Shown in pieces: positions 13,886-34,436 of a stretch of DNA of 64,000 bases (positions are counted from its first letter, which is position 1; each line of letters starts with the position of its first letter). The notes beneath the pieces were generated by a model. It was not told the DNA's origin. It saw only the letters and a program-made list of their open reading frames with translations, and did no database searches. The position numbers and the translations under genes were made by a program. The stretch covers positions 1 through 64,000 of the forward strand of contig JAFGRY010000010.1 of assembly GCA_016934955.1 (NCBI GenBank). The letters are read 5' to 3'. Origin of the DNA: a bacterium. Lineage in GTDB: Bacteria > Zhuqueibacterota > QNDG01 > JAGLOF01.

Positions 13886-14740
13886 CTACTGTTTCGGAAT
13901 CGTCAGCACCTGGTAGGGATAGATGAGATTCTGATCCTGGATGATGTCTTTATTGGCTTCGTACAATTTCGTCCACTTGGTGGGATCATTGAATACTTTT
14001 GCCATACCGGCGATCTTGTAGAGGAATTCGCCTTTTTCAACGAGGTGCTCGTTCTTGGCGACGCCGCGGGCGATATTGAAGATCTGATCCGAATAAATGA
14101 GATCGGGATTCTTGATCTGATCCTTGTTGACGTTGTAGATACGAATCCACTGAAGGGGATTATCGTAAATATCGGGTTTCTTCGCGATTTTCCAGAGATT
14201 GTCGTTCGCGACAACCGTGTACTGGTCAAAAATATTCGCAGGCATGTTTGCTTCCAGAGCGGCGACCTTGCCTTCCAGCTCGGCAATTTTGTTTTCCATC
14301 TCCGTCAGCAGTGCGATCTTGCTCTCTTTTGCTGTTGCAATCCGGTCTTTCAGGGCACAAAGTTCTTCCTGTCTGCGGAAAAGATCTTCAGCCGAAATGC
14401 TGCTCAAGCCGTCGAGTCCGGCATCGATGTCGTTCAGATCCGTGCCAAAGGCCTCTACACCGGCTTTGTCCGTGCCGAGCATCTCATAGATTTCCGTCCA
14501 GGTTGCATCGATCTCGCCCTGGGTGTCGGTAATCTGGCCGTTCAGGCCTTCGATGTCGGTATTCAGTGCGTTAATTTTCTCTTGTGCAGCAGTTTCCCGG
14601 CCCTGCCATTCCGCAAGCTGAACCTTGTACTCATCCATTTTAATCTTGCGTTCTTCCTGGGCGAATAACGAACCGCTCAGCAGCAGGGACACGATACAGA
14701 TCACCGAGAAAAGCTGTATCAGGGTACCGTATTTTTTCAT
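13886..14740 (-). CDS. Exported coiled-coil protein with LysM-like repeats
   Basis: Protein of 284 residues with a Sec signal peptide (residues 1-27, cleavage near GSLFAQ). A long coiled coil spans about 30-165 ('RETAAQEKINALNTDIEGL', 'LLTEMENKIAELEGKVAAL'). Two LysM-like modules follow at about 172-222 ('YTVVANDNLWKIAKKPDIY') and 228-283 ('HLVEKGEFLYKIAGMAKVF'), both ending in a 'DLIYxxQ(I/V)' element. LysM modules bind peptidoglycan glycans, so this likely connects the cell wall with another envelope component through the coiled coil. Partner is probably the lipoprotein encoded 41 bases upstream, which also has a coiled coil; they share a promoter and terminator. Confidence 0.85.
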   Translation of the reverse strand: MKKYGTLIQLFSVICIVSLLLSGSLFAQEERKIKMDEYKVQLAEWQGRETAAQEKINALNTDIEGLNGQITDTQGEIDATWTEIYEMLGTDKAGVEAFGTDLNDIDAGLDGLSSISAEDLFRRQEELCALKDRIATAKESKIALLTEMENKIAELEGKVAALEANMPANIFDQYTVVANDNLWKIAKKPDIYDNPLQWIRIYNVNKDQIKNPDLIYSDQIFNIARGVAKNEHLVEKGEFLYKIAGMAKVFNDPTKWTKLYEANKDIIQDQNLIYPYQVLTIPKQ

Positions 14741-14781
14741 CCTTCTCTCCTCCTTGTTACCTCAGTCCTGGCGCAATCGAT

Positions 14782-15045
14782 CTACAGTTTGGACTGAACA
14801 GTCTTTTTCTCTTCACCAACTTTTTTCAGTTCGTCCTGCTTGTCAGCGAGTTTCGCCTCCAAAGCGGCTTTCTCTTTTTCCAGCTCTGTCACTTTCTCTT
14901 CTGCGGAAAGTGCGGCTGCCTTGGTTTCATCCAGTGCCTGCAGCTGTTCTTCATTTGCGTACCGAGTACATCCCGTCGCCATGAAGGCTGCCAGCAGGAG
15001 CACAGAACAAAACACCAGAACAGTTTTCCGAACGCCTTCTCTCAT
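14782..15045 (-). CDS. Small coiled-coil lipoprotein
   Basis: Protein of 87 residues. The ATG at 15045 is preferred over a GTG three codons upstream because AGGAGG lies 8 bases before it. A lipobox (LLLAAFMATGC) gives a lipidated cysteine at about residue 23, followed by a heptad-like coiled coil rich in Glu, Lys, Ala and Leu to the C-terminus. Architecture resembles Lpp-type or Pal-associated lipoproteins, but no specific family is recognised. It is the first gene of a two-gene unit with the LysM protein, and a role in tethering outer membrane to the wall is inference. Confidence 0.8.
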   Translation of the reverse strand: MREGVRKTVLVFCSVLLLAAFMATGCTRYANEEQLQALDETKAAALSAEEKVTELEKEKAALEAKLADKQDELKKVGEEKKTVQSKL

Positions 15046-15096
15046 TCCCAACACCTCCTTTTACGTTGAATTACAACAGCTTAATTCCTGCTCAGA

Positions 15097-17050: not shown

Positions 17051-17243
<193 letters not shown>

Positions 17244-17247
17244 TAAA

Positions 17248-17273
17248 AGTATATTCTAATATTTTACAGTCAA
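17248..17273 (-). promoter_or_regulatory. Possible aspS promoter with short spacer
   Basis: TTGACT (17268-17273) and TATACT (17248-17253) on the minus strand, but only 14 bases apart, which is suboptimal for sigma-70. If used, the 35-base and 7-base arrays would be transcribed in the aspS leader. Confidence 0.3.
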
Positions 17274-17292
17274 GTGTTTTCTTCGCCCCCTG

Positions 17293-17364
17293 AACTCATC
17301 AACTCATCAACTCATCAACTCATCAACCCATGAACCCTTTAACCCTTGAACCCTTGAACACCTT
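17293..17364. repeat. Degenerate 8-base tandem repeat
   Basis: Nine octamers in register: AACTCATC four times, then AACCCATG, AACCCTTT, AACCCTTG twice and AACACCTT. It is separated from the GGAGACC array by an AT-rich 50-base segment. Non-coding; it sits between the terminator of the AgmX-like gene and aspS. Confidence 0.9.
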
Positions 17365-17433
17365 CCCGCTCTCACGATCTTCTTGCAGAGAACGGAGCAG
17401 CCGGGTCCTGCCTCCAGCCTCTAGTCTCCCATG

Positions 17434-17461
17434 AAAAAAGACCGTCCCTCCCGGAACGGTC
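17434..17461 (-). terminator. Terminator of the TPR-ExbBD-AgmX operon
   Basis: GACCGT (minus strand, 17456-17461) pairs with ACGGTC (17440-17445) around a 10-base loop and is followed by six Ts (17434-17439). It lies 33 bases after the stop of the AgmX-like gene. Confidence 0.85.
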
Positions 17462-17494
17462 CTCCTGTCAATGTCTGATCATGTCCTGCGGTGA

Positions 17495-18571
17495 TCAATA
17501 CCCGAAATTGAACACCTGGGTGAAGGTGACATCTCCCTCGCTGCGATCGATGGGTTTGAAATCGTTCCAGCGCTTGATCCGGGTGATGATGCACCGTTCC
17601 ACCCGCTCGTTGTTAAGGGTGGAATTGACGATTTCCGCATCGGCAACCTCACCGTCGGCGTTAACGGTGATTCTGACCGTGACCTTGCCCTTGAGAGTCG
17701 GATGCCGCTTCAGCTCCCGCTCGTAGCAGTATTTTATGGCGCTGTAGTGGTCATAGATAACGCGCTGCAGTTCCTGGCCGCTGCGGTACACGCTGCCGTG
17801 GCCCCGTCCCGCCACGTCGGCGGGAGTTTCAACCTGCAGTTCACCTGAACGCGACAGTGACTGAGAGCCGGCGCTGCCTCGTTCCGTCACCAGATCATCG
17901 ATGGTGGCTCCCTGCTGGCCCGTACGGCCTCCCCGCGCGCCCGTACCGGTGCCGTCACCGCCTGCCAGCGTTGACCTTCCGGTCGTTTTCAGCCCGTCAG
18001 AGGATGCGAGCACTTCGTCGAGATCGGATCCGCCGCCCCGGCCCACGCTGCCCAGCACATCGGTCACGGAGCCGCTCCCCTGGCTGCCGCCGCTGGCGGT
18101 CAGAAGACCGAGCAGTCCTTTGCTGCTCACCTGTCTCGACATTTCGGCTCGCCTGGCGGAGGCGTCGGCCCGCCGGTTTGCATGCCGCACTTCGGCGACC
18201 GCGGTGCGGGATTCGCCGTTGTCCTCACCGCCGCTGCCGCCGCTCGTCTCCTCGGCAGCCACCGCTTCCTCGGCCGTCTCTTCCTCACCGCCCTGCGCCT
18301 CTCCGGAAGCGAACGTATTCCGGCTGTCGTCTGCGGTCCGTTCTTCCTTGAGAATGAACTGTGCGAACCGCTCCTGTATCCGCGAAATCTCTTTGTCGCT
18401 GAATTCACTTACCGGCCGGCGGGAGAGCGAATAGACGACAACACCCTCCAGGACCAGGCAGCAGAGAAAGAGGATCAGGAAGTGAAAATCGAAATCGCCG
18501 AAAAACGGCTTTTCGAATGATGTCGGTGCTAACGTAACCGCCCTGTTTTTAAGCGAACCGGTACTCATCAT
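17495..18571 (-). CDS. AgmX/PglI C-terminal (TonB-like) domain protein
   Basis: Protein of 358 residues; the ATG at 18571 overlaps the upstream ExbD stop (ATGA). One N-terminal membrane anchor lies at about residues 30-50 ('FHFLILFLCCLVLEGVVVY'), then a long low-complexity periplasmic linker rich in Gly, Glu, Ser and Ala (about 60-260). A C-terminal TonB-like fold spans about 270-358 ('KYCYERELKRHPTLKGKVTV', 'NADGEVADAEIV', 'RIKRWNDF'). This anchor-linker-TonB layout is seen in AgmX/GltJ of the Myxococcus Agl-Glt machinery and in TonB proteins: it transmits force from an ExbBD motor across the periplasm. It closes the seven-gene operon. Confidence 0.85.
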   Translation of the reverse strand: MMSTGSLKNRAVTLAPTSFEKPFFGDFDFHFLILFLCCLVLEGVVVYSLSRRPVSEFSDKEISRIQERFAQFILKEERTADDSRNTFASGEAQGGEEETAEEAVAAEETSGGSGGEDNGESRTAVAEVRHANRRADASARRAEMSRQVSSKGLLGLLTASGGSQGSGSVTDVLGSVGRGGGSDLDEVLASSDGLKTTGRSTLAGGDGTGTGARGGRTGQQGATIDDLVTERGSAGSQSLSRSGELQVETPADVAGRGHGSVYRSGQELQRVIYDHYSAIKYCYERELKRHPTLKGKVTVRITVNADGEVADAEIVNSTLNNERVERCIITRIKRWNDFKPIDRSEGDVTFTQVFNFGY

Positions 18572-19083
18572 GCCTCTTCTCTGTAAACAACAAGCCGCAT
18601 ATTTGGATAGCTGGACTGCCCGCATGTGTACATGACCCGTATCAGCAGCTTGTAGGGAATGTCCCTGTTGCCCTGAATCGTCACTTTACCGGAAAATGGG
18701 GCGCCGTACATCTCTTCCATCTTCACCGCTTCCGAGCCATACCGGTCAAGCACGGTTTTCAGAGCGGGAATGATGTACTCCTCCTGCTCGAGGATGGTGG
18801 AGACTTTTTCAACGGCCTGATTATTGACGAGGATCCAGTCATTCGAAACAGTCACATCGAGTCCCATTTCCGGTTCGTGCTGTATGGTGGAAGAGGGCAG
18901 CGTCAGATCCTGGGAGGGGCTGATGAGCTGCCCGTGGGTCGAATATGTTTTCAGCAGAAAGACCAGAATGATGGTAAACATATCCATCATCGATGTGAGC
19001 TGCAGCTTGACATCACGGTTTTGTGTTCTGTGTTTTTTGCGTTTTGAGGGAATTGCAGTCATGGTGTTCCTGTCATCGTGCAT
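18568..19083 (-). CDS. ExbD/TolR-family protein with the conserved Asp
   Basis: Protein of 171 residues. A basic N-terminus (KRKKHRTQNR) precedes one transmembrane helix at about residues 28-45 ('LTSMMDMFTIILVFLLKTYS'). Asp34 occupies the position of the proton-carrying Asp25 of E. coli ExbD, although the usual TP before it is TS. The periplasmic domain continues to residue 171. It shares one base with the stop of the preceding ExbD (TAATG) and overlaps the AgmX-like gene by 4 bases. It is predicted to form the plug of an ExbB ring that uses proton or sodium motive force. Its pairing with a second ExbD lacking the Asp is notable. Confidence 0.88.
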   Translation of the reverse strand: MHDDRNTMTAIPSKRKKHRTQNRDVKLQLTSMMDMFTIILVFLLKTYSTHGQLISPSQDLTLPSSTIQHEPEMGLDVTVSNDWILVNNQAVEKVSTILEQEEYIIPALKTVLDRYGSEAVKMEEMYGAPFSGKVTIQGNRDIPYKLLIRVMYTCGQSSYPNMRLVVYREEA

Positions 19084-19637
19084 TAAAATACTCCCGCGCT
19101 CAGGGAAACATCGGGAAACAGACTTTCCCGTTTGCCCTCTTTCATCACCGATCTTGACGCGTCCATGGTGCTGATAAGCGTCTGATAATCGATCTCGGGT
19201 TCTGCGAGAATGATGATCTGCTCCGTATCGGGATAGCTGGACGCCGCCCGGGATTTGATCTCGTAGAGTTTATCGGAAAGCGTGGCATAGTCATAGGCCC
19301 GGGAACCGGTCTCTCCCGGAAAACGGGGAATGGTCGGTTCGCCTTGAAGATTCCCGCTCAGCACGGCCAGAGAACTGGAGATGAAAAATCCGCGATCGGT
19401 AATCGTCACCGTGAGATCGAGCTTCTGTATATCCTCGCTGGGCATCGCCTCCAGCTGCTGACCCGCGGGACCTTTGGCCGCCGGCGGCAGATTCAGTTCA
19501 ATGACGCCGAGTTTAACGAATTCCGCTGACGTCAGCAGCAGGGGGATGAGCACGACCATCAGATTCATCATCGGCGTGATGTTGGCTTCTCCCTCTTCAT
19601 GCGGATGGCGGCCCCTTTTCGACGGTCGATAGGCCAT
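19083..19637 (-). CDS. ExbD-like protein with Asn in place of the key Asp
   Basis: Protein of 184 residues. The single transmembrane helix at about 20-38 reads 'ITPMMNLMVVLIPLLLTSA'. It keeps the TP of ExbD/TolR, but Asn25 occupies the site of the catalytic Asp25 of E. coli ExbD. The remainder is a periplasmic domain of about 140 residues. By analogy with charge-neutral ExbD mutants, this subunit should not carry protons by itself, suggesting a structural or asymmetric role beside the Asp-bearing ExbD encoded next. It begins one base after the ExbB stop. Confidence 0.88.
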   Translation of the reverse strand: MAYRPSKRGRHPHEEGEANITPMMNLMVVLIPLLLTSAEFVKLGVIELNLPPAAKGPAGQQLEAMPSEDIQKLDLTVTITDRGFFISSSLAVLSGNLQGEPTIPRFPGETGSRAYDYATLSDKLYEIKSRAASSYPDTEQIIILAEPEIDYQTLISTMDASRSVMKEGKRESLFPDVSLSAGVF

Positions 19638-19638
19638 C

Positions 19639-20295
19639 CTATTCCTCGCCGGTGATCAGGTTGATCAGTTTCACCGTATGTTCATCTATTTCATCAATGA
19701 TCCGGGTGGTTTTATTATTGAGAATCGTGTAGATGAGAATCGCCGGAATCGCCACCGCCAGACCGGTGAGCGTCGTGTTCATGGACACGGAAATACCCTG
19801 GGCAAGCAATCTCGATTTCTCGGCTGCATCGATCCCCGGCGCGGATACGGAACGGAACGAAAGGATAAGCCCGTATATGGTTCCCATCAGTCCGACCAGG
19901 GTGGCGATGTTTCCGATCATCGCCAGATAATTGGTGCGCGCCTGCAGTTTCGGAATCACCTCCAGGGTGCCTTCATCGACGGCATTCTGAATCGCCGAGG
20001 CACTGGGTGTCTTCTGCCGGGACGCCCGCATCAGGCCGGACAGCACGATCTGGGGCAGCGCTTTGCCGTTGGCGCTGCGGCAGAGCTGAATCGCCTTTTT
20101 ATAATTGTTTTCGCTGATAAGCTTGCGTATATAGGCCATGAATTTCGCCGCATCGATATTTGATTTAATATAAATATAGTGGGTGCGCTCGATTGCGATG
20201 GTAATCATAAACCCCGCGATGATCAGCAGCGCCCACATAAAGAGCCATCCGCTGCCGGCTCCGGGAATAAAACTGTGCCAGAATTCAGCCATCAA
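19639..20295 (-). CDS. MotA/TolQ/ExbB proton-channel family protein
   Basis: Protein of 218 residues with three transmembrane helices: about 16-36 ('GWLFMWALLIIAGFMITIAI'), about 123-146 ('GNIATLVGLMGTIYGLILSF') and about 165-192 ('NTTLTGLAVAIPAILIYTIL'). The second and third carry the family's conserved Thr residues and small-residue packing. The Glu after the first helix (AIERTHY) matches other ExbB proteins. It should form the pentameric stator-like motor with the two downstream ExbDs. It starts 18 bases after the small exported protein gene. Confidence 0.92.
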   Translation of the reverse strand: MMAEFWHSFIPGAGSGWLFMWALLIIAGFMITIAIERTHYIYIKSNIDAAKFMAYIRKLISENNYKKAIQLCRSANGKALPQIVLSGLMRASRQKTPSASAIQNAVDEGTLEVIPKLQARTNYLAMIGNIATLVGLMGTIYGLILSFRSVSAPGIDAAEKSRLLAQGISVSMNTTLTGLAVAIPAILIYTILNNKTTRIIDEIDEHTVKLINLITGEE

Positions 20296-20313
20296 TTACC
20301 TCCAACGTAGGAT

Positions 20314-20718
20314 TCAGTCAGTCTCTTTTTTCCGTTCTTTTTCAAGTGCCTGTTTTATACTCTGCACCCGTTCAACCTGATGCAATTCCTGTTTCGGCTT
20401 GTATAGTCCGCTTTCCTTGTCGTTCAGTTCGTTCTGGAAACTTCGCTCCAGCTGCCGCTCTTTCAGCTTGGGTTCGAGCCGCTTCGGCACGATCATGACA
20501 CCGGGCTTGCTGACCCTGCCCTCGATAAAGATCTCATCGAGCACGATCTCACCCTTGCTGTTCATCGAATCGGCCTTCGCCGTCGTCTCACCGCTCGTAT
20601 GTTTCACCTTCATTGTATCGACTTTCACATCCTGGCTCCACACCGGTGCGGCGGCCAGGCATGCAGCGACACACAGCAGCGGCAGAATGTGTGTGTTCAT
20701 TGACGTTTTCACGGTCAT
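20314..20718 (-). CDS. Small exported protein of the TPR-ExbBD operon
   Basis: Protein of 134 residues with a signal peptide (residues about 1-28, 'LLCVAACLAAAPVWSQ'). The mature part has a short beta-type segment ('GEIVLDEIFIEGRVSKPGVM', about 54-73) and then a highly charged helical tail rich in Glu, Lys, Arg and Gln. No family recognised. It overlaps the large TPR gene by 4 bases and precedes ExbB by 18, so it is almost certainly part of the same complex, perhaps an adaptor between TPR protein and motor (inference). Confidence 0.75.
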   Translation of the reverse strand: MTVKTSMNTHILPLLCVAACLAAAPVWSQDVKVDTMKVKHTSGETTAKADSMNSKGEIVLDEIFIEGRVSKPGVMIVPKRLEPKLKERQLERSFQNELNDKESGLYKPKQELHQVERVQSIKQALEKERKKETD

Positions 20719-23700
20719 TTCTCCCTTCCGGTTTGCGGGGGCAGGGGTATATAACGGATGGTCACATCAGCGTAGAATGAAAACCCCGTGTCCCTCCGGT
20801 GTAAAAACACGACCAGGTTGTCCCCCTGTCTGAGTTTCTCACCGGACAGTGCACAAACCATGCCATTTTCGGCTTCGATGAGCGTATTGTTGACGACGAT
20901 ATGCTCCGGAATGGTTGTCTGGAACGAGATCGTTCCCGACATCGGATACCCCGGAACATAGATGCTCTTCCTGATGATAATCGTGTCGGGCACGGCCTGT
21001 TCGGCATCATCTACCCGTACCCTGCCCCAGATCAGGGCGCTGGGGGACTGGATCGGATGCTTCCAGCCCTGCACCGTCGTCAGGGCGGACACGCCCCCTT
21101 CAGTGAGCCCTTCATGATAGTACCAGGACGAATCCGTGCGCACGCTTATCCGATAGATCGAATCGGTATACTCCGCTTCGAACCGTTCCGGATCGGACTG
21201 CATCAGACGCACCAGCAGCGTGTTGCCGTAGGCTCCTGAACCGGGGAGCTCCCTGTAGGCGTTATAGGCTGTTTCAAGCAGTTCCAGACGACATTCCTGA
21301 AGGAAAAAGATATTGTCTTCAAAAACAGTTAACGCGTCTTCAAACAAGAGGTTATCATCTGCCTGAAACAGGTCGTCCGCCCGCTTGCGATACCCCTCAC
21401 CGATAGCCAGTAATATATCTATTGTATCAACGGTTGTCAAGGCAAAATCCACAAGACGGGTATTCACCGCTTCGACCGATCCGCCGTTTTCTCCGGCATC
21501 AGCCACATGCTGCGCACCTTCGAGGAAGAAATGGACCGCGGCTTTCCCATACGTTTTCGCGAGTTCGGTGAGGTTGATCATGGAGGTGGGAAGACTTTCC
21601 GCCGGAGCCATTTTTCGATCGAGAGCCGCGTATGCGTAGCGCCGGCTCAATGTTCTCAGGGACTCGTACGCGTCAAGCGTCAGATCACCGTACTCACGGA
21701 AAAGCATGAGGCTGTAGCTGTTGATCTTCGCCTGGGAATCGCGGCGCCACTGATTGTCAATGCCGAGGCTGTCCGAGACGTGCACGGTGCGTTCATGGGC
21801 GGCCACGATGTTGTCTGCCAGCGGCTTTGCAATTTTAAACAGCACCTGGTTCCGGTACTCCAGTTTGGCGACATCGTCGAGGTCGGCGGGAACCGGCGTA
21901 TCCAGGAAACGCTGCAGCGATTCACTGTTCATTTCAGCGATGGTGTAGAGTATTTCCGATATCTTCTCTTCCGTGCGCGCCTGCCATTCACCGGTGCCGG
22001 CACCGGATTCCGCGGCCGCCGCGGAACCGCCGAACGTATGAATGGCGTCCAGAGCGTCGATGAAGGCGGAAATGGCCCGCTCGTAAATATCGATGGCTCG
22101 TTCGTTGACCTCTTTCTGCTTCAGCACCAGCTCTTCCTCACTCAGCAGCGGCAGCTGCTGCCGCCGCCAGGTGAGCGCGTAATCCTCAAAAATCTGTCCA
22201 AGACAGAAGACCGACTCCGGCAGTCTTGACGTCTTGTAGGCGGCGATCCTGGTATACTGGTCGGTGAGCTGGCCCAGAAGGCGCTGCTTTTCGCGCAGTG
22301 ACTGGTCGAATCTCGACCGGGGCAGCAGAAGCTGGATGGTGTTGAATCTGCGATGGATCAGTTTCGTCTGCAGGAACAGAGCTTCGGAAACATAGTACCC
22401 GTCGAGCTCTTTTCCCTGCTCTATCCAGCGGATACCTGTTTCATGGGCGGTCGCGAACTGCTGCTCGGCCTTGTCGTATTCACCCCTGGCCTGGTAGTAG
22501 ACGCCGAGCTTGAAATGGACCTCCACATTCAGCGGTGATTCCGGGAACCGCTCCGCAAAGCTGGTGAAGGTGCGCATCCCGCTTGCCGTGTCTCCCAGAG
22601 CCAGGTAGCACTCCCCGGTGCGGTAAAAAATCACTTCGGCATCCCCTGAATCCGGATAGGTCTCGGCATAGGTCTGCCCGGCGGTGATCGCCTTCCGGTA
22701 CTCCCCCGCTTTCTCAAAGAAAATAAAGGAGTTATAGAGGGCGTCCCGTTTCCTCATGCCGTCCTCCGCCCGCTCAGCCAGCAGGGCGTAATAGGTGGCG
22801 GCCTTCAGGTAATTGCCGGTCTCGGCATAGTCGAGGGCAAGGTTGTTATAGGCATCATACAGCAGCGGCGATGCCGGATAGACGCTGATGATATTTTCAT
22901 AGGCGCTGATGGCCGACTTGAAATCAGCGTCTTTCTCATAGTAAAGCGCGGCATTGAAGAGCGCCCGGTCCGCGAATTCCATTGTCGGCGCTTCCAGGGC
23001 CATTCTGTGAAATTCCCTGGCGGCCAGGCTGCTGCTCTGATGTTCGGCAAAGGTCTGAGCGTTCAGAAAAATCGCCTCTCCGAGCCGTTTTTTCGCCCGC
23101 TCTTCAATCTCTTTTACTGGCTTGGCGCTGAGAATTCGTTTTGCCAGCTGTTCCGCGCTCTTGTAATCCTTTTTCCCGAAGTAACTGTCAAGGATCGACA
23201 GTTTGACGGTGTTGATCTGATCGCTCTCCGGGAAGTACTGCACGAGCGTGTTGAAGTACTTGATCGCCTCCGAGAACTGATTGTGGATGTAGTAAAGGGC
23301 GCCGGCATTGGCCAGGATCAGCGGTGTGTTCTCTTCATCGAAGGGAAACAGCTTGATATAGTTGTCGTAGGCCATCGCCTGCCAGCTCTCGGCGGTGCTC
23401 AACGGCCGGGGGGCATCGATGTCCGCCCCGCCCGCGGGCGCAGGGGTGCCGGTGCTCCGCTGCTCGATGGCCACCAGCGAATCACTGACGACAATCGCGT
23501 TGGCCGCGGCGTCGCGAATCGAGGAGAGCCCCTTGTTCCGCGCGAATGTCTCGTATTTACGGGTATTGTAGACCATGCAGATAGTGAGGTATTCCTGCAG
23601 GGCGTCCTTGTAGAGGGCGAGACGGGTATCCAGGATGAGGGCGATATTCCAGCGGATCATATAGGCATATTCATCTTCAGGGAAATTATCGAGATAGGTC

Positions 23701-25001
23701 CTGCCCATCTCCACCGCCTGCTCATAGATGGCTCTGCTGCCGTGTGCACCGGCCTGTTCGATCAGCGTATTGATATTTTCCCGCAGCGCCTGTTCCGTAA
23801 GCCGATAGGCGGTGAGTTTCGCATTCTCATCATCGATCTGCTCCCACCAGACGCTTCCTTTTTTGTAGGTGAGAAACAGTTTGTACCGTTCCTCAAAGGC
23901 GCTGTCGTCGTCATCCACCAGCAGGTAGCAATCGACAATCTTCCGCATGGTGATGGGCGCATCCGCAGCATCGGGTGCGAATTCCAGGAAATAACTGTAG
24001 GCCGTTATCGCATTGGTGTATTCCTCTTTCTGCTCCATGTACACATCACCCAGGTTGCGCATGACGGCCCTGCTCCAGTCCGGGCGCCCGATACCGTTGA
24101 GATACTCGACGGCTTTCTGCGGGCCGCCGTAATCGTGAAAACTGATGGCAATGTATTCCAGCGCCTCTTCCATCAGGTCCACGCCCGCCGACTCACCCTC
24201 CGGATCGTACTTTCTGGTCAGGGTCACATCCTCAACCAGGGCGGTGAAATAGCTGATGGCCTGTACATACTCACTCAGCCGGTAATAGGACCAGCCGAGC
24301 TTGTAAAGCGATTCGCCGTACCGGGCGTTGGTTTTATAGGGTCCGATCGCCTTGTAATACTCGATGGCCGTCTCCAGGTCATTGACCGGCGGATTGAAAT
24401 AGTATTCACCCAGGCGCATATAGGCTTCCGGAACGTAGGGGCTGTTGGGATAGGTCTCCGTCAGATACCGGTATATGTCGTTCGCCCGTTCATGATCCCC
24501 CATCTCCTCATAGAGAAATGCCTTGTTATAAACGGCATCATCCACAAGGTCACTTTCGGGCAGCTCATCGAGAATACGCTCATACAGCCCCAGCGGCTTT
24601 GAAAGATCGAGCACCGGTTCATTCCCGCTGAATGGTTCACCGGACTGTTCCGCGGCGATTATCGCCTGTTCATACTCGTCCATGGCCGAGATATAGTCGT
24701 CTTTGGCCTGGTAGTAGTAGAGATCAGCGAGCCTGATGAGCATTTCATCAAGCATTTTCGCATCGGGATTGACCGCAAGCAGCTTCTCCCCGTCATCTAT
24801 GCCCTTCTGGATAAGATCCTGCTTCTCCTGCTGAAGGGACTGCAGCTCCAGCACATAGTAGCGGCGGTAGCTCTGCAGTTCAGGCAGCGAAAGCACGTGA
24901 AATGTTGAATCCAGACTCTCGGTCGCGAGCTGTCCCCTGAGAACCTGCGGCTGTACAAGCAGCCACACCGGCAGCAGATAGGTGAAAAGGAGCCGTCTCA
25001 T
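20715..25001 (-). CDS. Very large periplasmic tetratricopeptide-repeat protein
   Basis: Protein of 1428 residues with a signal peptide (about 1-23). Many TPR units are visible from about residue 150 to 900, for example 'AIEYYKAIGPYKTNARYGES', 'AISYFTALVEDVTLTRKYDP', 'AIKYFNTLVQYFPESDQINT' and 'AEQQFATAHETGIRWIEQGK'. A helical region follows, and the last 180 residues look beta-rich ('SALIWGRVRVDDAEQAVPDT', 'SFYADVTIRYIPL'). Long TPR proteins of this sort form periplasmic scaffolds, as with AglT/PglI and Glt proteins of Myxococcus gliding. Position between another TPR gene and ExbB/ExbD genes, with 4-base overlaps on both sides, makes it a likely structural component of that machine. Confidence 0.85.
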   Translation of the reverse strand: MRRLLFTYLLPVWLLVQPQVLRGQLATESLDSTFHVLSLPELQSYRRYYVLELQSLQQEKQDLIQKGIDDGEKLLAVNPDAKMLDEMLIRLADLYYYQAKDDYISAMDEYEQAIIAAEQSGEPFSGNEPVLDLSKPLGLYERILDELPESDLVDDAVYNKAFLYEEMGDHERANDIYRYLTETYPNSPYVPEAYMRLGEYYFNPPVNDLETAIEYYKAIGPYKTNARYGESLYKLGWSYYRLSEYVQAISYFTALVEDVTLTRKYDPEGESAGVDLMEEALEYIAISFHDYGGPQKAVEYLNGIGRPDWSRAVMRNLGDVYMEQKEEYTNAITAYSYFLEFAPDAADAPITMRKIVDCYLLVDDDDSAFEERYKLFLTYKKGSVWWEQIDDENAKLTAYRLTEQALRENINTLIEQAGAHGSRAIYEQAVEMGRTYLDNFPEDEYAYMIRWNIALILDTRLALYKDALQEYLTICMVYNTRKYETFARNKGLSSIRDAAANAIVVSDSLVAIEQRSTGTPAPAGGADIDAPRPLSTAESWQAMAYDNYIKLFPFDEENTPLILANAGALYYIHNQFSEAIKYFNTLVQYFPESDQINTVKLSILDSYFGKKDYKSAEQLAKRILSAKPVKEIEERAKKRLGEAIFLNAQTFAEHQSSSLAAREFHRMALEAPTMEFADRALFNAALYYEKDADFKSAISAYENIISVYPASPLLYDAYNNLALDYAETGNYLKAATYYALLAERAEDGMRKRDALYNSFIFFEKAGEYRKAITAGQTYAETYPDSGDAEVIFYRTGECYLALGDTASGMRTFTSFAERFPESPLNVEVHFKLGVYYQARGEYDKAEQQFATAHETGIRWIEQGKELDGYYVSEALFLQTKLIHRRFNTIQLLLPRSRFDQSLREKQRLLGQLTDQYTRIAAYKTSRLPESVFCLGQIFEDYALTWRRQQLPLLSEEELVLKQKEVNERAIDIYERAISAFIDALDAIHTFGGSAAAAESGAGTGEWQARTEEKISEILYTIAEMNSESLQRFLDTPVPADLDDVAKLEYRNQVLFKIAKPLADNIVAAHERTVHVSDSLGIDNQWRRDSQAKINSYSLMLFREYGDLTLDAYESLRTLSRRYAYAALDRKMAPAESLPTSMINLTELAKTYGKAAVHFFLEGAQHVADAGENGGSVEAVNTRLVDFALTTVDTIDILLAIGEGYRKRADDLFQADDNLLFEDALTVFEDNIFFLQECRLELLETAYNAYRELPGSGAYGNTLLVRLMQSDPERFEAEYTDSIYRISVRTDSSWYYHEGLTEGGVSALTTVQGWKHPIQSPSALIWGRVRVDDAEQAVPDTIIIRKSIYVPGYPMSGTISFQTTIPEHIVVNNTLIEAENGMVCALSGEKLRQGDNLVVFLHRRDTGFSFYADVTIRYIPLPPQTGREK

Positions 25002-27562
25002 TTTTCACCACCCGCTTCCTCGGTCTGCTTCCGGACGATTTCGTCAATATTGTTGATCACCGATTCACGCCTGCGTTTGTTGAAGTAATCAACCCTGAAA
25101 AACCGCTCTTTCTCGTTCAGGGACCGCTGATCGGCCTCCTTGCGCATCTGTTCCTCTATTTTGGCCACATCCAGCAGCAGCCCTTTGATGCGATTATCCA
25201 TATTCCTTCGCTTGTCGGTAAAAATGTAATCGATATTCTCGATAATGCTGGATATCTGCTCGATGTTCCGTTCACATTCCTTTATCCTGGCGAAATTGAT
25301 GGAGCTGATGCCGTAGCCGCTGAAACTGGCCCAGCGGTCGACTTCGATATTGACATCACCGGGCATGTTTTCCCGCAGCCAGATTTCATACCGGTTAAGC
25401 CGCCCGTAATAGTCATTCAGTTCTTCCTCCCTGATCTCGCCCTCGACGATCGAGGTGAAGTTCTCCCGGGAGCGGGCATCCTCCAGCCGGGCGGCCACCT
25501 GCCCGAGCTCGGCTTCGACCTCCTGCTTCCTGCCGACGGTCTCACTGAGCAGTGTCTGGTAGGAGTACCGCAGGAATTCAGAGGTCCCCATCCGTTTGAT
25601 GAGCGGATCTTCGGCGGGATTTTCCGAGCCGGCGGAAAACCGTTTCGTGTGATCGGCAAGCAGGTTGATCAGATGGCTTCTGATTTTACGAATTTCCGAG
25701 AGCGCCCCGGCGTCGTTTTTTTGTTCGGCCTCTTTCTCAAGCTGATCGAGGCTGGCGATTTTGTGTCTGATCTCGGCGGTCTCTTCGGCGAACACATCAT
25801 CACTGCCTGCGGGAAGCGCGGGATCGGAATCGGGCTGAACGTTCTCCAGAAAGATCCGTATTTCATCGAGATTCCGGAACTGCTCCCGGTCCCGGGCATC
25901 GGCCAGCTCCCGCTGGGTCATCTCGAACTCGTTGAGCCGGGTTCTGAACCTGACTTCATCTTCATCCTCTCTGATCCCGGCCACATAGCCCGCGGCATAT
26001 ACCGACTCCAGGTCGGTGATCGCCTCTTCGGACTTGCCGAGAAGATCCTTGGAGCTTGCCGCCAGCACCCGCGCTTCATAGGTGTAATTGGAAAGCAGCG
26101 AAGAGTGCAGCACCTCCTCGACATTCTTGAGCGCTTCACCCGGCCTGCCGCTTCGATAAGCGCTCCAGGCCTTGCCCATGAGACTGAGATCATAATTCTG
26201 GAAATTTTCCGTCACCTGGCTGAAAAAGTGGGTCGCCAGGGCATCATTACCCTGTTCATAATAAAGCATGCCCATTTTCAGCAGGGCGTTGTTCCGTATC
26301 TGGCCGAGAACCGGATCGCGGTTGCCCTTGTTCGGAGTATCGATGATCCGCTGGTAAATCGGCATGGCGAGGCTGTCATTGCCCATGCTCGTGTGACAGG
26401 AGGCGGTGAGATAGACGCCGGGATAGTAGAAGCGGGTGCCTGCCCTGACATGCCTGAGGGATGACAGCGCCTTACCCGATTCGCCGTTTATATAGTGGAC
26501 AAATCCGACGAGATAGGAAACCACCCCGAGCTGCTCATCGTCGAGCAGCGAGGCTCTGGCAAGCACGCGGGTGTATGTATCCACCAGCTTTTCATAATCG
26601 CCGTAAATATAATAGATGAAGGTTTGCTTCAGGAGCGCCCGGGCCGCGTATGGTGAATCGGGATAGAGGCGTATAAGATCGGTATAATAGCTGAGGCTTT
26701 CATCGAGCAGATTCAATCCGTAACAGGATTCCCCGGTATAGAAATAGAGATCGTCGAGGACTCTCTCTCCGCTGTATGTTCCGATGATGTCCTGCAGCAG
26801 CAGCCGGGCCAGGGGGAAATCACGATTATTATAACTCTCCAGCGCCGATTTCAGAGCGCGCCTGAACATCCGTTCCTCCTGCCTGGGCGTCGCCGTTTTC
26901 AGCAGCCGCGTGCGTAATATCTCATATCCGGTCTGTTCCACCTTGTAGGTGAGCAGGCGGTTGAGCTGCCACTCTTCATAGATGGTGCGAATTGTCTCTT
27001 TCCTCATCGCCGAGGCGCTGTCCGGAGCCGTATTCGCGCCGTTCTCACCCCCGGAAAGTGAATCAGCCGCGCCGCCGCTCAGGCGGCGTTCGGTCATATC
27101 GATGTTCCGGGTCTCCAGAATCGTTCGCAGCCGCTTCTTGAGCTTCTCGAGGGCATCAAGCACTTCCAGGTCGGCTTTCCGCTTCGCCTGGATCTCCAGG
27201 GTTTGAATGTCATCCATGAGCCTGACCAGCAGTTCAAGCTCCTGCTCATACTGGGACCGGATTTTCTCTTCGGGGGTCGTCAGCTCGTCGATGCCCAGTT
27301 CAGCGAGGTCGGCCCCTTCGGCCCGTCTGCGCTCCAGTTCACTGGTGATGTTCCTGACCAGTTCAAACAGATACTTCTCCTTGGGCACGAACAGGGTGAG
27401 AAAATCCTGCTTCGCCAGTTCCGCGTAGTAACGGAACCGCAGTTCCGCCGGCGCTGCGGAACCGGCTGTATCGTCAGCAGCGGCCGCGGTTCCGGCAGAC
27501 AACCATCCGGAAACAATCAGCGTCGCATATACAGCGATTCGTTTTAAGCTGTTCCCGCTCAT
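24998..27562 (-). CDS. Large periplasmic TPR and coiled-coil protein
   Basis: Protein of 854 residues from the ATG at 27562, chosen because it directly precedes a clean signal peptide (ending GTAAAAD); GGAGG is 13 bases upstream, longer than ideal, and an in-frame ATG at 27598 would add 12 residues. A coiled coil lies at about 60-165 ('LERRRAEGADLAELGIDELT'), TPR units at about 220-540 ('ARLLLQDIIGTYSGERVLDD', 'SLSYYTDLIRLYPDSPYAAR') and a long C-terminal coiled-coil part at about 560-854. First gene of the seven-gene operon, overlapping the next by 4 bases. The 267 bases upstream hold the V-ATPase terminator; no clear promoter was identified. Confidence 0.83.
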   Translation of the reverse strand: MSGNSLKRIAVYATLIVSGWLSAGTAAAADDTAGSAAPAELRFRYYAELAKQDFLTLFVPKEKYLFELVRNITSELERRRAEGADLAELGIDELTTPEEKIRSQYEQELELLVRLMDDIQTLEIQAKRKADLEVLDALEKLKKRLRTILETRNIDMTERRLSGGAADSLSGGENGANTAPDSASAMRKETIRTIYEEWQLNRLLTYKVEQTGYEILRTRLLKTATPRQEERMFRRALKSALESYNNRDFPLARLLLQDIIGTYSGERVLDDLYFYTGESCYGLNLLDESLSYYTDLIRLYPDSPYAARALLKQTFIYYIYGDYEKLVDTYTRVLARASLLDDEQLGVVSYLVGFVHYINGESGKALSSLRHVRAGTRFYYPGVYLTASCHTSMGNDSLAMPIYQRIIDTPNKGNRDPVLGQIRNNALLKMGMLYYEQGNDALATHFFSQVTENFQNYDLSLMGKAWSAYRSGRPGEALKNVEEVLHSSLLSNYTYEARVLAASSKDLLGKSEEAITDLESVYAAGYVAGIREDEDEVRFRTRLNEFEMTQRELADARDREQFRNLDEIRIFLENVQPDSDPALPAGSDDVFAEETAEIRHKIASLDQLEKEAEQKNDAGALSEIRKIRSHLINLLADHTKRFSAGSENPAEDPLIKRMGTSEFLRYSYQTLLSETVGRKQEVEAELGQVAARLEDARSRENFTSIVEGEIREEELNDYYGRLNRYEIWLRENMPGDVNIEVDRWASFSGYGISSINFARIKECERNIEQISSIIENIDYIFTDKRRNMDNRIKGLLLDVAKIEEQMRKEADQRSLNEKERFFRVDYFNKRRRESVINNIDEIVRKQTEEAGGEK

Positions 27563-27829: not shown

Positions 27830-28264
27830 TTATTTCGGCAGCGCCGTCATGGCGAATACCATCACGAACAGGGCTACTGTTTCAATAACACCGACCACCA
27901 TGATATAGTTCCCGAACCCCTTGCCGGTTTCCGTAAGCGCGTCACAGGCCTTCGCGCCCGCTTTGCCCTGCATATAGGCCGAGAGCCCCATGGCGGCACC
28001 GGCCAGGGCGCCGATCAGTATCTGCCATCCGTATGTGCCCGCTGCCCAGGGTGCGGCCTGAATCGCATTCCGCAGAATCATGCCGTAAATCGTCTGGGAA
28101 AGAGGAGCGCCGACAAACGCCACCAGAATGAAAGGGGCCGCTTTATTGTCATTGAACGCTTTTTTCCAGGCGCCGACCGCGGCCATCCCCGCCACTCCGG
28201 TGCCGAAGGCCGATCCGATGGCGGCCAGAACGAGCGAAATATTCATGTCACCTAAACCAGTCAT
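27830..28264 (-). CDS. atpK: V-type ATPase subunit K (rotor proteolipid)
   Basis: Protein of 144 residues with four transmembrane helices, a tandem two-hairpin proteolipid. The ion-binding Glu is only in helix 4 (Glu128, 'VVGVIETVALF'). Helix 2 has 'APLSQTIYG' (Ser56, Gln57, Tyr60) and helix 3 'YMQGK' (Gln99). These correspond to Thr64, Gln65, Tyr68, Gln110 and Glu139 of the Na+-binding Enterococcus hirae K ring, so a sodium-binding rotor is plausible. AGGA precedes the ATG by 7 bases. Last gene of the operon, followed by a strong terminator. Confidence 0.93.
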   Translation of the reverse strand: MTGLGDMNISLVLAAIGSAFGTGVAGMAAVGAWKKAFNDNKAAPFILVAFVGAPLSQTIYGMILRNAIQAAPWAAGTYGWQILIGALAGAAMGLSAYMQGKAGAKACDALTETGKGFGNYIMVVGVIETVALFVMVFAMTALPK

Positions 28265-28298
28265 TGCATGTTCCTTTCAGTTAACGATACACTGTCTG

Positions 28299-30065
28299 TT
28301 ACTCTGTAAACGGTTTATACGGTTTGCCCGCCCACTGCATATCGAGCTGGCCCGAAAACTCCAGCATATTGAGCCGGACACCATGAACCACCACCGCCAT
28401 CAATCCGAGAACAATGTTGAGCCCGTGTCCCAGAAAGAGCACGAGCGCGGCCGCGACTCCGGCCGTAACGCTGGGGACACCGCCGCCGACCGCCATGTCG
28501 TTGAAACTGGCGGCCACCGTTACCGAGGCGTATCCAACCGCAAAAAGCCGCAGGTAGGAAACCACATCAGAAAACGAACTGATGATCGAAAGCGGCAGAT
28601 CACCCAGTGTCGCCCCGATTCCCTTGAGTATATTTTTCTGGAAATTGGAAAAAACCAGGGTCAGCCCGATGCTTGCCAGCAGCAGCGGCATCATGAACGG
28701 CGGCAGCGGTTTCCCGATCACCAGATTCCCGGCCACGAAAAAGAGCGACCAGAGGATACCGATCCACCCGATCTCTGACAGCGCCCTGGGTGACCTGACC
28801 GCCCTGAACGCCTTCAGTCCATGGGCGATGGAAAGATGAACGACCCCGATGACAAAACAGAGATACATGAGAAATGTGCTGTTGTCGCCGGCAAAACTGT
28901 CGATCCGGTCAATGACCAGGGAGTTGAAAAAGGGCAGTCTCCCGATGGGAGCGTAGCCGAACCAGTTGCCCGTGATGACCCCCCAGATAATGGTCGCTCC
29001 GCTCAGGGTCGCCATAAGCGCGAATACTCCCCGGGGAGCGTGTTTGAATTTCGCCGTTCCCCAGATCGTAAGACCGAGAAAGACGATGCCGTAGCCGGCG
29101 TCGCCGATGAGCATGGCGAAAAACAGGCTGAAAAAGAGGAGAAACCAGAAACTGATGTCGTGTTCGGCATACCCCGGCACCGTTCCCATGAACGCGAAGA
29201 GCGGATCGATCATGCCGAGCCATCCGGGCTTCCGGATCAGGGTCGGGACCTCTTCAGGATGCTCGGGATCATCAAGTACGTACGCCCAGCCCTGTTTGTC
29301 GGCCGCTGCCCGTATGCTATCCGTACTCTCTTCCGGGCAGTATCCCTGGAGAAAAAAGAATCCCTCACCGTCTCCCATGCCGTTCAGTGCTTCCTGAAAT
29401 TCGATCTCCTTCGCCAGATCGCTGCGCCGGTCCTCCACTGACTGTCGCATCCCTGCGGCGGCGGCGATTTCCTTTCCGACCCGTTTGTGCTCTTTCTCCG
29501 CGTCGGCTATCTCCCGCATCAGGTCGCGGTATTCCCGCTCGGGCATGGGAACCGGCTTGAGATCCAGAGAGGAACCATCACGGGAGAGATGCACAAAGTA
29601 GACAGTACCGTGCTGTTCCCGGGCCGTGAATATATCGAGATCGGGTGAAAGGGCTGCAAATGTCTTTTTATCGAGCGCGTAAAAGCGGGCGGCAACGCCC
29701 GTTTCCCCGAGCAGGTCGATGCTCTCCCTGGATACGGGTCCGAAGAGATCGAACCAGGAGGCCGTCTGCCTGAGATCAGCGATCCTGCGCGTCAGCTCGG
29801 TTTCCTGCGTGTGCAGGTCCAGCACCAAATCCACGACCTTGTCGGCATCGGGATCGGCGGACCGGCTCTCTGCGGAGAGCGATTCCAGAATCCGCAGCAC
29901 CCGCTCGTACCGTCCCATGCGCTCACGAAGCGCATCGAGGTCCTCCGATTCCGGCGGCTGCACCGGTTCAATGTGGACAACGCCCAGCTTACGCAGCCGT
30001 TTCAGGGCCTTGTCAGGCGCGGACGCGCTGATCAGGAGCGTTATCTGTTTCATCGGAACGATCAT
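28299..30065 (-). CDS. atpI: V-type ATPase subunit I (a-type stator)
   Basis: Protein of 588 residues, the membrane subunit that forms the ion half-channels and the link to the peripheral stalks. The cytoplasmic N-terminal half (about 1-310) includes coiled-coil segments. The C-terminal half has about seven transmembrane helices ('FWFLLFFSLFFAMLIGDAGYG', 'VVSYLRLFAVGYASVTVAA', 'LVLFLGHGLNIVLGLMAVVV'). The essential Arg is in 'SYLRLFAVG'. The N-terminal 'MIVPMK' is typical of the family. Overlaps atpD by 4 bases. Confidence 0.95.
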   Translation of the reverse strand: MIVPMKQITLLISASAPDKALKRLRKLGVVHIEPVQPPESEDLDALRERMGRYERVLRILESLSAESRSADPDADKVVDLVLDLHTQETELTRRIADLRQTASWFDLFGPVSRESIDLLGETGVAARFYALDKKTFAALSPDLDIFTAREQHGTVYFVHLSRDGSSLDLKPVPMPEREYRDLMREIADAEKEHKRVGKEIAAAAGMRQSVEDRRSDLAKEIEFQEALNGMGDGEGFFFLQGYCPEESTDSIRAAADKQGWAYVLDDPEHPEEVPTLIRKPGWLGMIDPLFAFMGTVPGYAEHDISFWFLLFFSLFFAMLIGDAGYGIVFLGLTIWGTAKFKHAPRGVFALMATLSGATIIWGVITGNWFGYAPIGRLPFFNSLVIDRIDSFAGDNSTFLMYLCFVIGVVHLSIAHGLKAFRAVRSPRALSEIGWIGILWSLFFVAGNLVIGKPLPPFMMPLLLASIGLTLVFSNFQKNILKGIGATLGDLPLSIISSFSDVVSYLRLFAVGYASVTVAASFNDMAVGGGVPSVTAGVAAALVLFLGHGLNIVLGLMAVVVHGVRLNMLEFSGQLDMQWAGKPYKPFTE

Positions 30066-30679
30066 TCAGCCGTCACCTTCTCTTTCTTCTTCAAAATTTT
30101 CGTTTTGGCGATCTTGCCGCGGACAACCTCGGCTGTCTGCATATCACCGAGGAAGATCCTGATCATGCGGATCGCCTCCCTGGCGCCGGGTATCTTCACT
30201 TCCTCAAAGAGTTTCATTCGCTGTATGGTCACCCTGAGCTCCCGGGAAACGACATCCTCCTGCTGCCTCAGGACCGCCATCTCCGCGGCCCGCGCGATCT
30301 GTTTTCTGCAGACATCGAGGGCCGTGTCGATCCAGAGGGGCGTCTCCGCGTAATCGTATACCGCATCCTCGAAGGTGATCTTCCTGAACAGCGGTATGTC
30401 GATACCGGCGATATTGCCGCTGTCCAGCGAGACCTCGGCGATCCGGATCAGCGGCTGCAGATCGACTCCCTTTTCCGCGAACACCCCGGCCCAGGCTTCC
30501 ACGGCTCTGTCCTGCTTCTCCGACTCTTCTGTAAGATCCCGTATGTCCGACTGTATTTTCCGCAGTTCCACGAGAAGCTGCTGCTTTTTCAGTTCCAGCG
30601 TCGGGAGGTAGCGGGTAAAACGCTTGAGATCGTCTTTCTGTTTCTTGAGTTCGTTTTTCGTCAGTCGAATTTTCGCCAT
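30062..30679 (-). CDS. atpD: V-type ATPase subunit D (central stalk)
   Basis: Protein of 205 residues, the coiled-coil rotor shaft inside the A3B3 head. The N-terminal 'KIRLTKNELKKQKDDLKRF' and the helical character throughout are family features. It starts 25 bases after the B-subunit stop and overlaps atpI by 4 bases. Subunit F, found in archaeal operons, is not in this cluster, as in Chlamydia- and spirochaete-type V-ATPase operons. Confidence 0.93.
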   Translation of the reverse strand: MAKIRLTKNELKKQKDDLKRFTRYLPTLELKKQQLLVELRKIQSDIRDLTEESEKQDRAVEAWAGVFAEKGVDLQPLIRIAEVSLDSGNIAGIDIPLFRKITFEDAVYDYAETPLWIDTALDVCRKQIARAAEMAVLRQQEDVVSRELRVTIQRMKLFEEVKIPGAREAIRMIRIFLGDMQTAEVVRGKIAKTKILKKKEKVTAE

Positions 30680-30704
30680 GGTTCGCCTTTATCCGTCAGG
30701 ACAT

Positions 30705-32132
30705 CTATTTCTTTTTCTTCGTCTTTTTCTCTTTTTTCTTTTCCCCGGCGTCCCCTTTCCGGCCGCCTTCCTTTTCGGACGGCGCCGCTTCACCCTGTTC
30801 CGTCTTCGGGGCGGGCTTTCCCTCTGTCGTCTCCTGCCGCTCAGCCGGCCAGAACGCTTTCACCAGCTCGCTTCTGAGACCGGTTTCACCCGGCTCGAAA
30901 CATTCAGCGAGGATCTCCCATCCCCGGTCCAGCGCTTCTTCAAGAGGAATGTTCACGGAGAGATCCATCATCTGTCCTTCAAAGAGTTTCCCGTATTTCA
31001 GCAGTTTGTTGTCCCAGCCGCTCATGCGGAATCCCATGGCGCGCTTTTCCTCGCTCTCCTGATACTGGGCGTAGAGCTGGATCATGCCGTCCATGATGGC
31101 CCGGTGGTCCTCTCTGGTATCGCTGTTGACCTGCTGTTTGAGCCGGGAAAGCGACCCGAAGGGTTCGATGCGCCCGTTCCTCAGATAGAACTGGCCTTCG
31201 GTGATATATCCGGTGTTGTCCGGCACCGGATGAGTGACGTCGTCACCGGGCATGGTGGTCACGGCCAGCACGGTAATGGCGCCGGCGCCTTCGAAATCAA
31301 CGGCCTTTTCGTACCGGGAGGCCAGCTGGCTGTAGAGGTCTCCGGGATAGCCCCGGTTCGAGGGCACCTGTTCCATGGTAATGGCGATTTCCTTGAGCGC
31401 GTCGGAGAAATTCGTCATGTCGGTGAGCAGCACCAGCACCTCCCTGCCCGCCATGGCGAATTTCTCGGCAACGGCCAGAGCGAGATCGGGCACCATAAGC
31501 CCTTCCACGATCGGTTCGGAAGCGGTGTGAATGAAAAATATGGAACGGGAGAGGGCCCCCCCGTCTTCAAGCACGTTCTTGAAGTACATGTACTGGTCGA
31601 ACTTCAAGCCAATGCCGCCGAGGATGATCATGTCCACTTCGGCCTGCATGGCGATGCGGGCGAGCAGTTCGTTGTATGGTTCACCCGACACTGAAAATAT
31701 GGGCAGTTTCTGGGAGGCCACCAGCGAATTGAACACATCGATCATGGGTATGTTCGTGCGGATCATTCGCTTGGGGATGATCCTCTTGGCCGGGTTCACC
31801 GATGGCCCCGCGATCGGAATGACCTCATCGGCGATGGAGGGACCTCCGTCCCGGGGGACGCCGCTGCCGTTGAAGATCCGTCCCAGCATGGTGTCGGAAA
31901 AAGACACCTGCATGGGATGTCCGAGAAACCGCACTTCGTCATTGGTGGCGATTCCCCGGCTGCCGGCGAAGACCTGCAGCGAGACGATATCATCCTCGAT
32001 CTTGATAACCTGGGCCAGAGATCTGCCCCGTCTGGTCGTTATCTCGGCGAGTTCTTCATACGCGACGTCCTCGGCCTTTACGGTGATGACATTTCCTGCG
32101 ATACTGAGAATTTTATTGTAGATTTTCTTCAT
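30705..32132 (-). CDS. atpB: V-type ATPase subunit B (non-catalytic)
   Basis: Protein of 475 residues from the ATG at 32132; GAAGGG lies 10 bases upstream, and an in-frame TTG six codons earlier is less likely. It has the degenerate nucleotide-binding fold of B subunits ('[17 protein letters not shown]' at the P-loop site without GKT; '[19 protein letters not shown]'). The last 40 residues form an extra Lys/Glu-rich tail (ending [11 protein letters not shown]) beyond the usual length. The 5' end overlaps atpA by 20 bases. Confidence 0.95.
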
Positions 32133-33858: not shown

Positions 33859-33888
33859 TATCCATTCCCACCAGTTATTCAGTTACAA

Positions 33889-34434: not shown

Positions 34435-34436
34435 GC

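Follow-up and report, generated by a model that had tools for sequence, protein, structure and literature searches.

The window, that is, the whole 64,000-nucleotide stretch of DNA analysed here, carries seven tightly packed, co-directional open reading frames on its minus strand, from 27562 to 17495, in the order gltC-gltD-gltF-aglR-aglQ-aglS-gltG (Table 1). Successive junctions measure -4, -4, +18, +1, and -1 bases, followed by a 4-base ATGA overlap, with overlaps and gaps of at most 18 bases throughout. The last junction assumes that gltG begins at 18571, most likely the correct start, rather than at 18625, the start of its longest open reading frame, which would give an overlap of 58 with the preceding ExbD gene. 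A GGAGGA site is located upstream of the first gene (854 aa), and the hairpin that closes the operon (17470-17430), which a simple terminator scan did not list, is called from folding and its T-run. Together, the open reading frame coordinates and the hairpin with its T6 confirm what a reading of the sequence without database searches (hereafter the sequence-only reading) had described as seven packed genes running in one direction to a single terminator. Searches with Pfam models found TPRs in both large proteins, as well as MotA_ExbB and two ExbDs.

Table 1. Predicted features of the seven-gene block, listed in the direction of transcription.
Feature	Position	Strand	Basis
Probable GltC-like periplasmic protein of 854 aa with a signal peptide and, on either side of its TPR solenoid, long coiled coils	24998..27562	-	Pfam TPR, profile match to myxococcal GltC, AF2
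Predicted GltD orthologue of 1428 aa with a signal peptide, a TPR solenoid of about 1000 residues and a C-terminal extension	20715..25001	-	Profile-profile comparison; conserved in 20/20 loci
Carbohydrate-binding-type jelly roll, GltD residues about 1283-1419	20745..21155	-	Profiles, AF2, Foldseek
Putative GltF/CglF-type small exported protein, 134 aa	20314..20718	-	Signal peptide, motif, place directly after GltD, weak profile match
AglR-type ExbB/TolQ motor subunit, 217-218 aa; start TTG 20295 or ATG 20292	19639..20295	-	PF01618 (2.8e-24), tree
ExbD1, AglQ position, 184 aa; Asn25 (codon 19565-19563) replaces the proton-binding Asp	19083..19637	-	PF02472
ExbD2, AglS position, 171 aa; Asp34 (codon 18984-18982) kept	18568..19083	-	PF02472
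GltG-like transducer with a TM helix, a linker rich in Gly/Ser/Glu and a TonB-like C-terminus of the AgmX/PglI kind; lacks an FHA domain	17495..18571	-	NF033760, NF033768, alignment
Intrinsic terminator closing the operon	17430..17470	-	Hairpin of -22.1 kcal/mol, z -4.6, T6 at end

On its 5' side the block is preceded by a V-type ATPase operon, and on its 3' side it is followed by aspS, a small lipoprotein, a LysM protein, phoH, an HD-domain membrane protein, and ybeY. The V-type ATPase (27830-35027) is found in the taxonomic order to which the window belongs; the same place in other families (L055, L057, L059, L062) is occupied by F-type ATP synthase genes with an alpha-gamma-beta layout, so that one type of ATPase seems to have replaced the other at this conserved locus upstream of the block. 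The small coiled-coil lipoprotein and the LysM protein beside aspS (13886-15054) are conserved in many families, independently of the block. The intergenic region between the block terminator and aspS (17060-17300) harbours a series of GGTCTCC repeats along with inexact copies of AAGCAAACATCGCTGCGCGGCTTTCCGGTCTC. Elsewhere in the window (55426-60135), a UvrA protein of 1569 aa, compared with 924-943 aa for the models, shows five matched stretches of the UvrA model and is possibly a duplicated form like chlamydial UvrA.

Glt-like proteins and the C-terminal domain of GltD

We refer to the block and its orthologues as block A, as distinguished from a paralogous block B described below. Plain Pfam and NCBIfam scans were insufficient to identify the two TPR proteins, which required profile-profile comparison with a myxococcal Glt locus. 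The comparison locus (L137) was reached via distant matches; its own genes score as an OMP_myx_plus barrel, GltC (226 bits), GltE (167 bits), CglF/GltF (55 bits), and GltG (347 bits), and the TPR protein encoded between those for GltC and GltE was assigned as GltD by position. Both this locus and a second one (L184) are called myxococcal since sister loci are labelled Myxococcales, Deltaproteobacteria, or proteobacterium, and since they contain Glt-family genes of their own. The family of the 1428-aa protein aligned with myxococcal GltD over 970 columns with an E-value of 2e-133 (hhalign), and on this profile match we identify the protein as GltD. For the 854-aa family, values were 5.5e-23 with GltC, 3.5e-15 with GltD, and 1.7e-7 with GltE; the match is confined to the TPRs, so part of the score is generic, and the protein is probably GltC. 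An AF2 model of the 854-aa protein (pLDDT 79) places the TPR solenoid at about residues 190-510, with long helices on either side. The NCBIfam GltC match alone (28.8 bits) was not relied on, as it is outscored by generic TPR models. In about 60 block-A clusters, no gene for GltE was found in the interval separating GltD from the small protein.

The 134-aa protein always directly follows GltD, and its family carries the motif E-x2-I-x-G-x-V-x-K-P-x5-P-x-R. Its profile-profile match to myxococcal GltF is weak (1e-4, 57% probability), and the two have in common a signal peptide, the motif I-x-G-x-V-x-K-P-x5-R, and a gene position following GltD. Judged by the short motif, its position, and the weak profile match, it looks like a GltF/CglF-type protein. 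The last protein of the block scored 116 bits with the GltG model NF033760, below the 650-bit equivalog cut-off of that model, with the FHA half missing; 89 bits with NF033768, which describes the AgmX/PglI tail and has a cut-off of 40; and weakly with TonB_C (Pfam). A profile of this family had no match among solved structures. These similarities identify the protein as GltG, with a predicted orthology less strong than that of GltD.

Used as a family profile, the last ~130 residues of GltD matched the CBM67 rhamnosidase SaRha78A (3w5m, 2.3e-14) and two lectins (6t0q and 6kbj, 3e-13). The AF2 model of this domain has a mean pLDDT of 88, and Foldseek related it with a probability of 1.0 to CBM35 (2w1w) and to GH2 sugar-binding domains; when the whole GltD C-terminus was submitted, the top E-values were meaningless (long helical proteins, TMq 0.14), and the jelly-roll matches with a probability of 1.0 were used. 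The jelly roll is present in 80 of 82 block-A GltDs and hence in every complete one, as the remaining two come from truncated copies of a single contig; it is also present in the two diverged forms (genomes G020 and G034). It is absent from all the GltDs of block B and of myxococcal loci that were examined, and a sugar-binding-type end on block-A GltD appears to be a new feature. The motif AD(D/N), at the usual sugar/Ca site, is clear in Calditrichota and many KSB1 members and degenerate in the window's own order; in the window's GltD it is lost and reads TTIPEHIVVNN. Glycan binding by this particular copy is therefore doubtful and can be suggested only weakly. The sequence-only reading, which described the 1428-residue protein as a periplasmic TPR scaffold, had missed the sugar-binding-type domain at its C-terminus.

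Motor subunits and the Asn/Asp ExbD pair

In a tree of ExbB proteins, those of block A, block B, and the core-type and Agl-like clusters split from the TolQ/ExbB of the same genomes (100/99); several branches are long, and only this split of core plus Agl versus Exb/Tol is used here. An ExbB motor with two ExbDs had been proposed from the sequence alone and is borne out by PF01618 and PF02472, but an exchange in the first ExbD had gone unnoticed. At the Asp position of P-x-x-D, ExbD1 has Asn in 90 of 90 sequences covering the site, and ExbD2 has Asp in 90 of 90; these counts include duplicate fetches of the same genome, so that the number of independent genomes is lower. Among comparison loci, Asp occupies this position of the first ExbD in five Agl-like triplets of myxococcal origin (L199, L200, L203, L206, L213), and Asn does so in two core-type clusters (L184/L216, L187). 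In Myxococcus xanthus, AglQ and AglS have both been reported with the proton-binding Asp (PMC9389320), and the substitution D28N in AglQ abolishes function and paralyses the motor (PMC3858216). No report of the Asn form of an AglQ-position ExbD was found in the literature searched, and the exchange appears to be a new feature.

A 2022 review describes it as not known whether AglQ and AglS form homo- or heterodimers (PMC9389320). With the usual proton site of ExbD1 disabled by Asn, the two ExbDs of the block may form a heterodimeric axle in which a single proton site works. A homodimeric ExbD1 motor should be dead, and the strict conservation of ExbD1 therefore argues for a mixed axle. Going by these sequences, we regard the heterodimer as a serious possibility at slightly less than even odds. 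A fixed Asn at the AglQ position of a natural motor makes the homo- versus heterodimer question directly testable. The window's genome also contains a second paired-ExbD system on contig C15 (L232:5743-7871), with the order ExbB-ExbD-ExbD-TonB and Asp in both ExbDs.

Conservation and distribution of the block

A whole-genome search found full-length orthologues of the 1428-aa protein, with 30-48% identity, in most of the 59 relatives. Block A as a whole is present in 48-49 of the 59, two of them (G020, G034) having it in a diverged form. At the aspS-ATP synthase locus of these two genomes (L034, L235), the TPR proteins and GltG are strongly diverged, while ExbB retains 62-66% identity and GltD its sugar-binding-type domain. 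Nine relatives, which fall into three families, lack the block with no assembly defect that would obviously account for it, and the block is therefore not essential across the phylum; one further genome is only 76% complete.

All 20 orthologous stretches that were fetched contain the same genes in the same order, except for ends cut by the contig and for the small protein, which tblastn missed in some. Profiles built from the block recovered the order TPR1-TPR2-p134-ExbB-ExbD1-ExbD2-AgmX in about 60 named contigs, which belong to candidate division KSB1, Caldithrix, and other Calditrichota. Since the same order recurs in nearly all relatives and named contigs examined, the seven-gene grouping is far beyond chance. 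Conservation of the block in related genomes, the check suggested by the sequence-only reading, was thus found in both sets, with the genes adjacent and their order fixed. By these sequence comparisons the block is not a peculiarity of one lineage, and it runs through two poorly known phyla, KSB1 and Calditrichota.

Block B was identified in phylum mates outside the window's order and not found in the window's genome. It comprises a GltC-like protein of 460-490 aa, a GltD-like protein of about 1000 aa, a small protein, an ExbB, two ExbDs, and a GltG-like protein. In two genomes (G037 and G051; L225, L226), block B has lost aglR, aglQ, and aglS and kept gltC, gltD, the small protein, and gltG; its transducer must therefore borrow a motor or be dead.

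Interpretation and comparison with known systems

We interpret the block as a stand-alone core complex of the Agl-Glt type, in a variant that lacks GltE, with a probability of roughly 0.75. This assignment is based on the profile matches of GltD and GltC, the GltG match, the split in the ExbB tree, the fixed gene order, and the same plan in the myxococcal core-type cluster L184, where C-D-E-F-R-Q-S-G in one run corresponds to the block plus GltE. The core complex was defined as GltC, D, E, and G with AglR, Q, and S and one extra gene, and was reported in Fibrobacter succinogenes and in gamma-, beta-, and deltaproteobacteria as a complex of unknown function, from which the gliding and Nfs sporulation machines were argued to have grown (Luciano et al., 2011; PMC3169522). 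In the literature searched, no function assigned to it since 2011 was found. The matches to GltD, GltC, GltG, and AglR-type proteins uphold the earlier proposal of a trans-envelope, pmf-type machine resembling pieces of Agl-Glt. The accompanying statement that the gene content matches no known system does not stand, as the published core complex fits except for GltE (PMC3169522).

By analogy with Myxococcus, the block probably encodes a pmf-driven, non-gliding machine that exerts force across the envelope. AglR and the two ExbDs would form a pmf-driven 5:2 motor in the inner membrane, to which GltG would be coupled by its TM helix (an AglR-GltG contact is indicated by two-hybrid data; PMC3169522), with its TonB-like tail reaching into the periplasm. 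The tail would then pull or turn the TPR arm made of GltD and GltC, to which GltF would be attached; in M. xanthus, GltC binds GltA/GltB (PMC4488436). Less surely, the lectin-like end of the arm might engage envelope glycan, such that peptidoglycan or an outer-membrane or surface polysaccharide would be moved or strained relative to the inner membrane. A sugar-binding-type end on the largest arm, found across two phyla, offers a concrete clue that the original function had to do with envelope glycan, which would agree with the transport of slime by Agl-Glt and of the Exo spore-coat polymer by Agl-Nfs (PMC3169522, PMC3858216). We consider glycan as the load of the machine a tentative proposal, with the odds about two to one against it. 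More doubtful still is a broader scenario in which the ancestral, non-gliding Agl motor had a 5:2 stator with an obligate ExbD1:ExbD2 heterodimer, in which the power stroke was one-sided because only one of the two proton sites was active, and moved a GltD arm with a lectin-like tip along or against the glycan of the envelope, the gliding motors with Asp in both axle subunits being derived from it.

Other functions can be envisaged for an ExbB/ExbD motor combined with a TonB/TolA-like transducer and CpoB(YbgF)-type TPRs, which are also the ingredients of a Tol-Pal-like machine for outer-membrane constriction or integrity. A role as a stand-in for Tol-Pal would suit the near-universal presence of the block beside housekeeping genes, and TolB exceeded its curated cut-off in only 19 of 59 relatives, versus about 48 with the block. 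However, a locus on contig C45 of the window's genome combines TolQ, TolR, TolB, and Pal with a YbgF-like gene, and the block is therefore not a reduced Tol system; its ExbB also groups with the AglR type and not with TolQ. The absence of Pal and TolB that had been noted from the sequence is thus true of the block, but not of the genome, where the Tol-Pal locus looks complete, and we consider a Tol-Pal substitute unlikely. A dedicated TonB system, powering a subset of the TonB-dependent receptors, is the least probable of the alternatives. Such receptors are encoded in the window and GltG has a TonB-like C-terminus, but that tail belongs to the AgmX/PglI class, standard TonB systems have neither giant TPR proteins nor paired ExbDs, and the genome has separate loci for this purpose (TonB-ExbB on C19 and ExbB-ExbD-ExbD-TonB on C15).

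Orthology to six of the seven Agl-Glt core genes could also mean that the block is a complete gliding motor for surface motility. Only one NF033768 match in the genome exceeds the cut-off, leaving no second protein with an AgmX/PglI tail (GltJ-like), and the GltA/B barrel family TIGR04565 has no match in the window's genome and exceeds the cut-off in only 5 of 59 relatives, although divergent barrels could escape this model. Furthermore, the core set alone was judged unlikely to drive gliding (PMC3169522), and the genome paper for C. abyssi reports flagellum genes, tumbling motility, and no gliding machinery of the Bacteroidetes type (PMC5317091). The block by itself is probably not a gliding machine, and we give this reading a very low probability. 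Marginally less probable again is that the block energises the T9SS translocon in phyla that have SprA and no recognised GldL/GldM motor. SprA exceeds the cut-off in 57 of 59 relatives, including the window's genome (C29, 33417-38612), and lies about 17-23 kb from the block in two families; the GldM model had 0 matches in 59, in a search without a positive control, from which absence is not established. Most families and the window's genome show no linkage (SprA on C29, the block on C30), and SprA homologues persist in all nine genomes that lack block A, exceeding the cut-off in eight, though a paralogous block B could cover these nine. As SprA is nearly universal, its co-occurrence with the block carries no information, and tracking the block with T9SS genes, which the sequence-only reading had recommended, proved not to be discriminating. 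The near-universality of SprA in the phylum is itself of note, as a T9SS review calls the system specific to Bacteroidetes (PMC7463736).

The Agl-Glt-type core complex, our preferred reading, can be placed among known systems as follows. The GltD C-terminus resembles CBM67 and galactose-binding-like lectin domains (3w5m, 6t0q) in profile and fold, but is fused to a periplasmic TPR motor arm, and its ligand residues are degenerate in the window's order. Tol-Pal and TonB-ExbB-ExbD systems share with the block a motor of the ExbB/ExbD family and a TonB-like tail; they are separate loci in the same genome, have ExbD/TolR proteins with Asp, and lack a TPR arm of the block's kind. The Agl-Nfs sporulation machinery is likewise driven by AglRQS through a Glt-like transducer and is associated with a glycan polymer, but includes NfsE and the barrels NfsA/B in the outer membrane, and uses a motor borrowed from Agl (PMC3858216).

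Compared with the Agl-Glt gliding machinery of M. xanthus, the block has a homologous motor, GltC, GltD, GltG, and probably GltF, colinear as C-D-F-G. It differs in that its motor genes are inside the cluster, that genes for GltE, GltJ-like, and GltA/B-type proteins were not found, and that the essential Asp of AglQ is Asn. Relative to the published core complex, the block differs in having no GltE in the cluster, a sugar-binding-type domain on GltD, a phylum-wide rather than sporadic distribution in KSB1 and Calditrichota, and perhaps Asn in the first ExbD (with AglQ/AglS of M. xanthus as the Asp reference; PMC9389320). The two are alike in clustering six of the seven core genes and in combining two ExbDs, large periplasmic TPR proteins, a GltG transducer, and perhaps a small extra exported protein.
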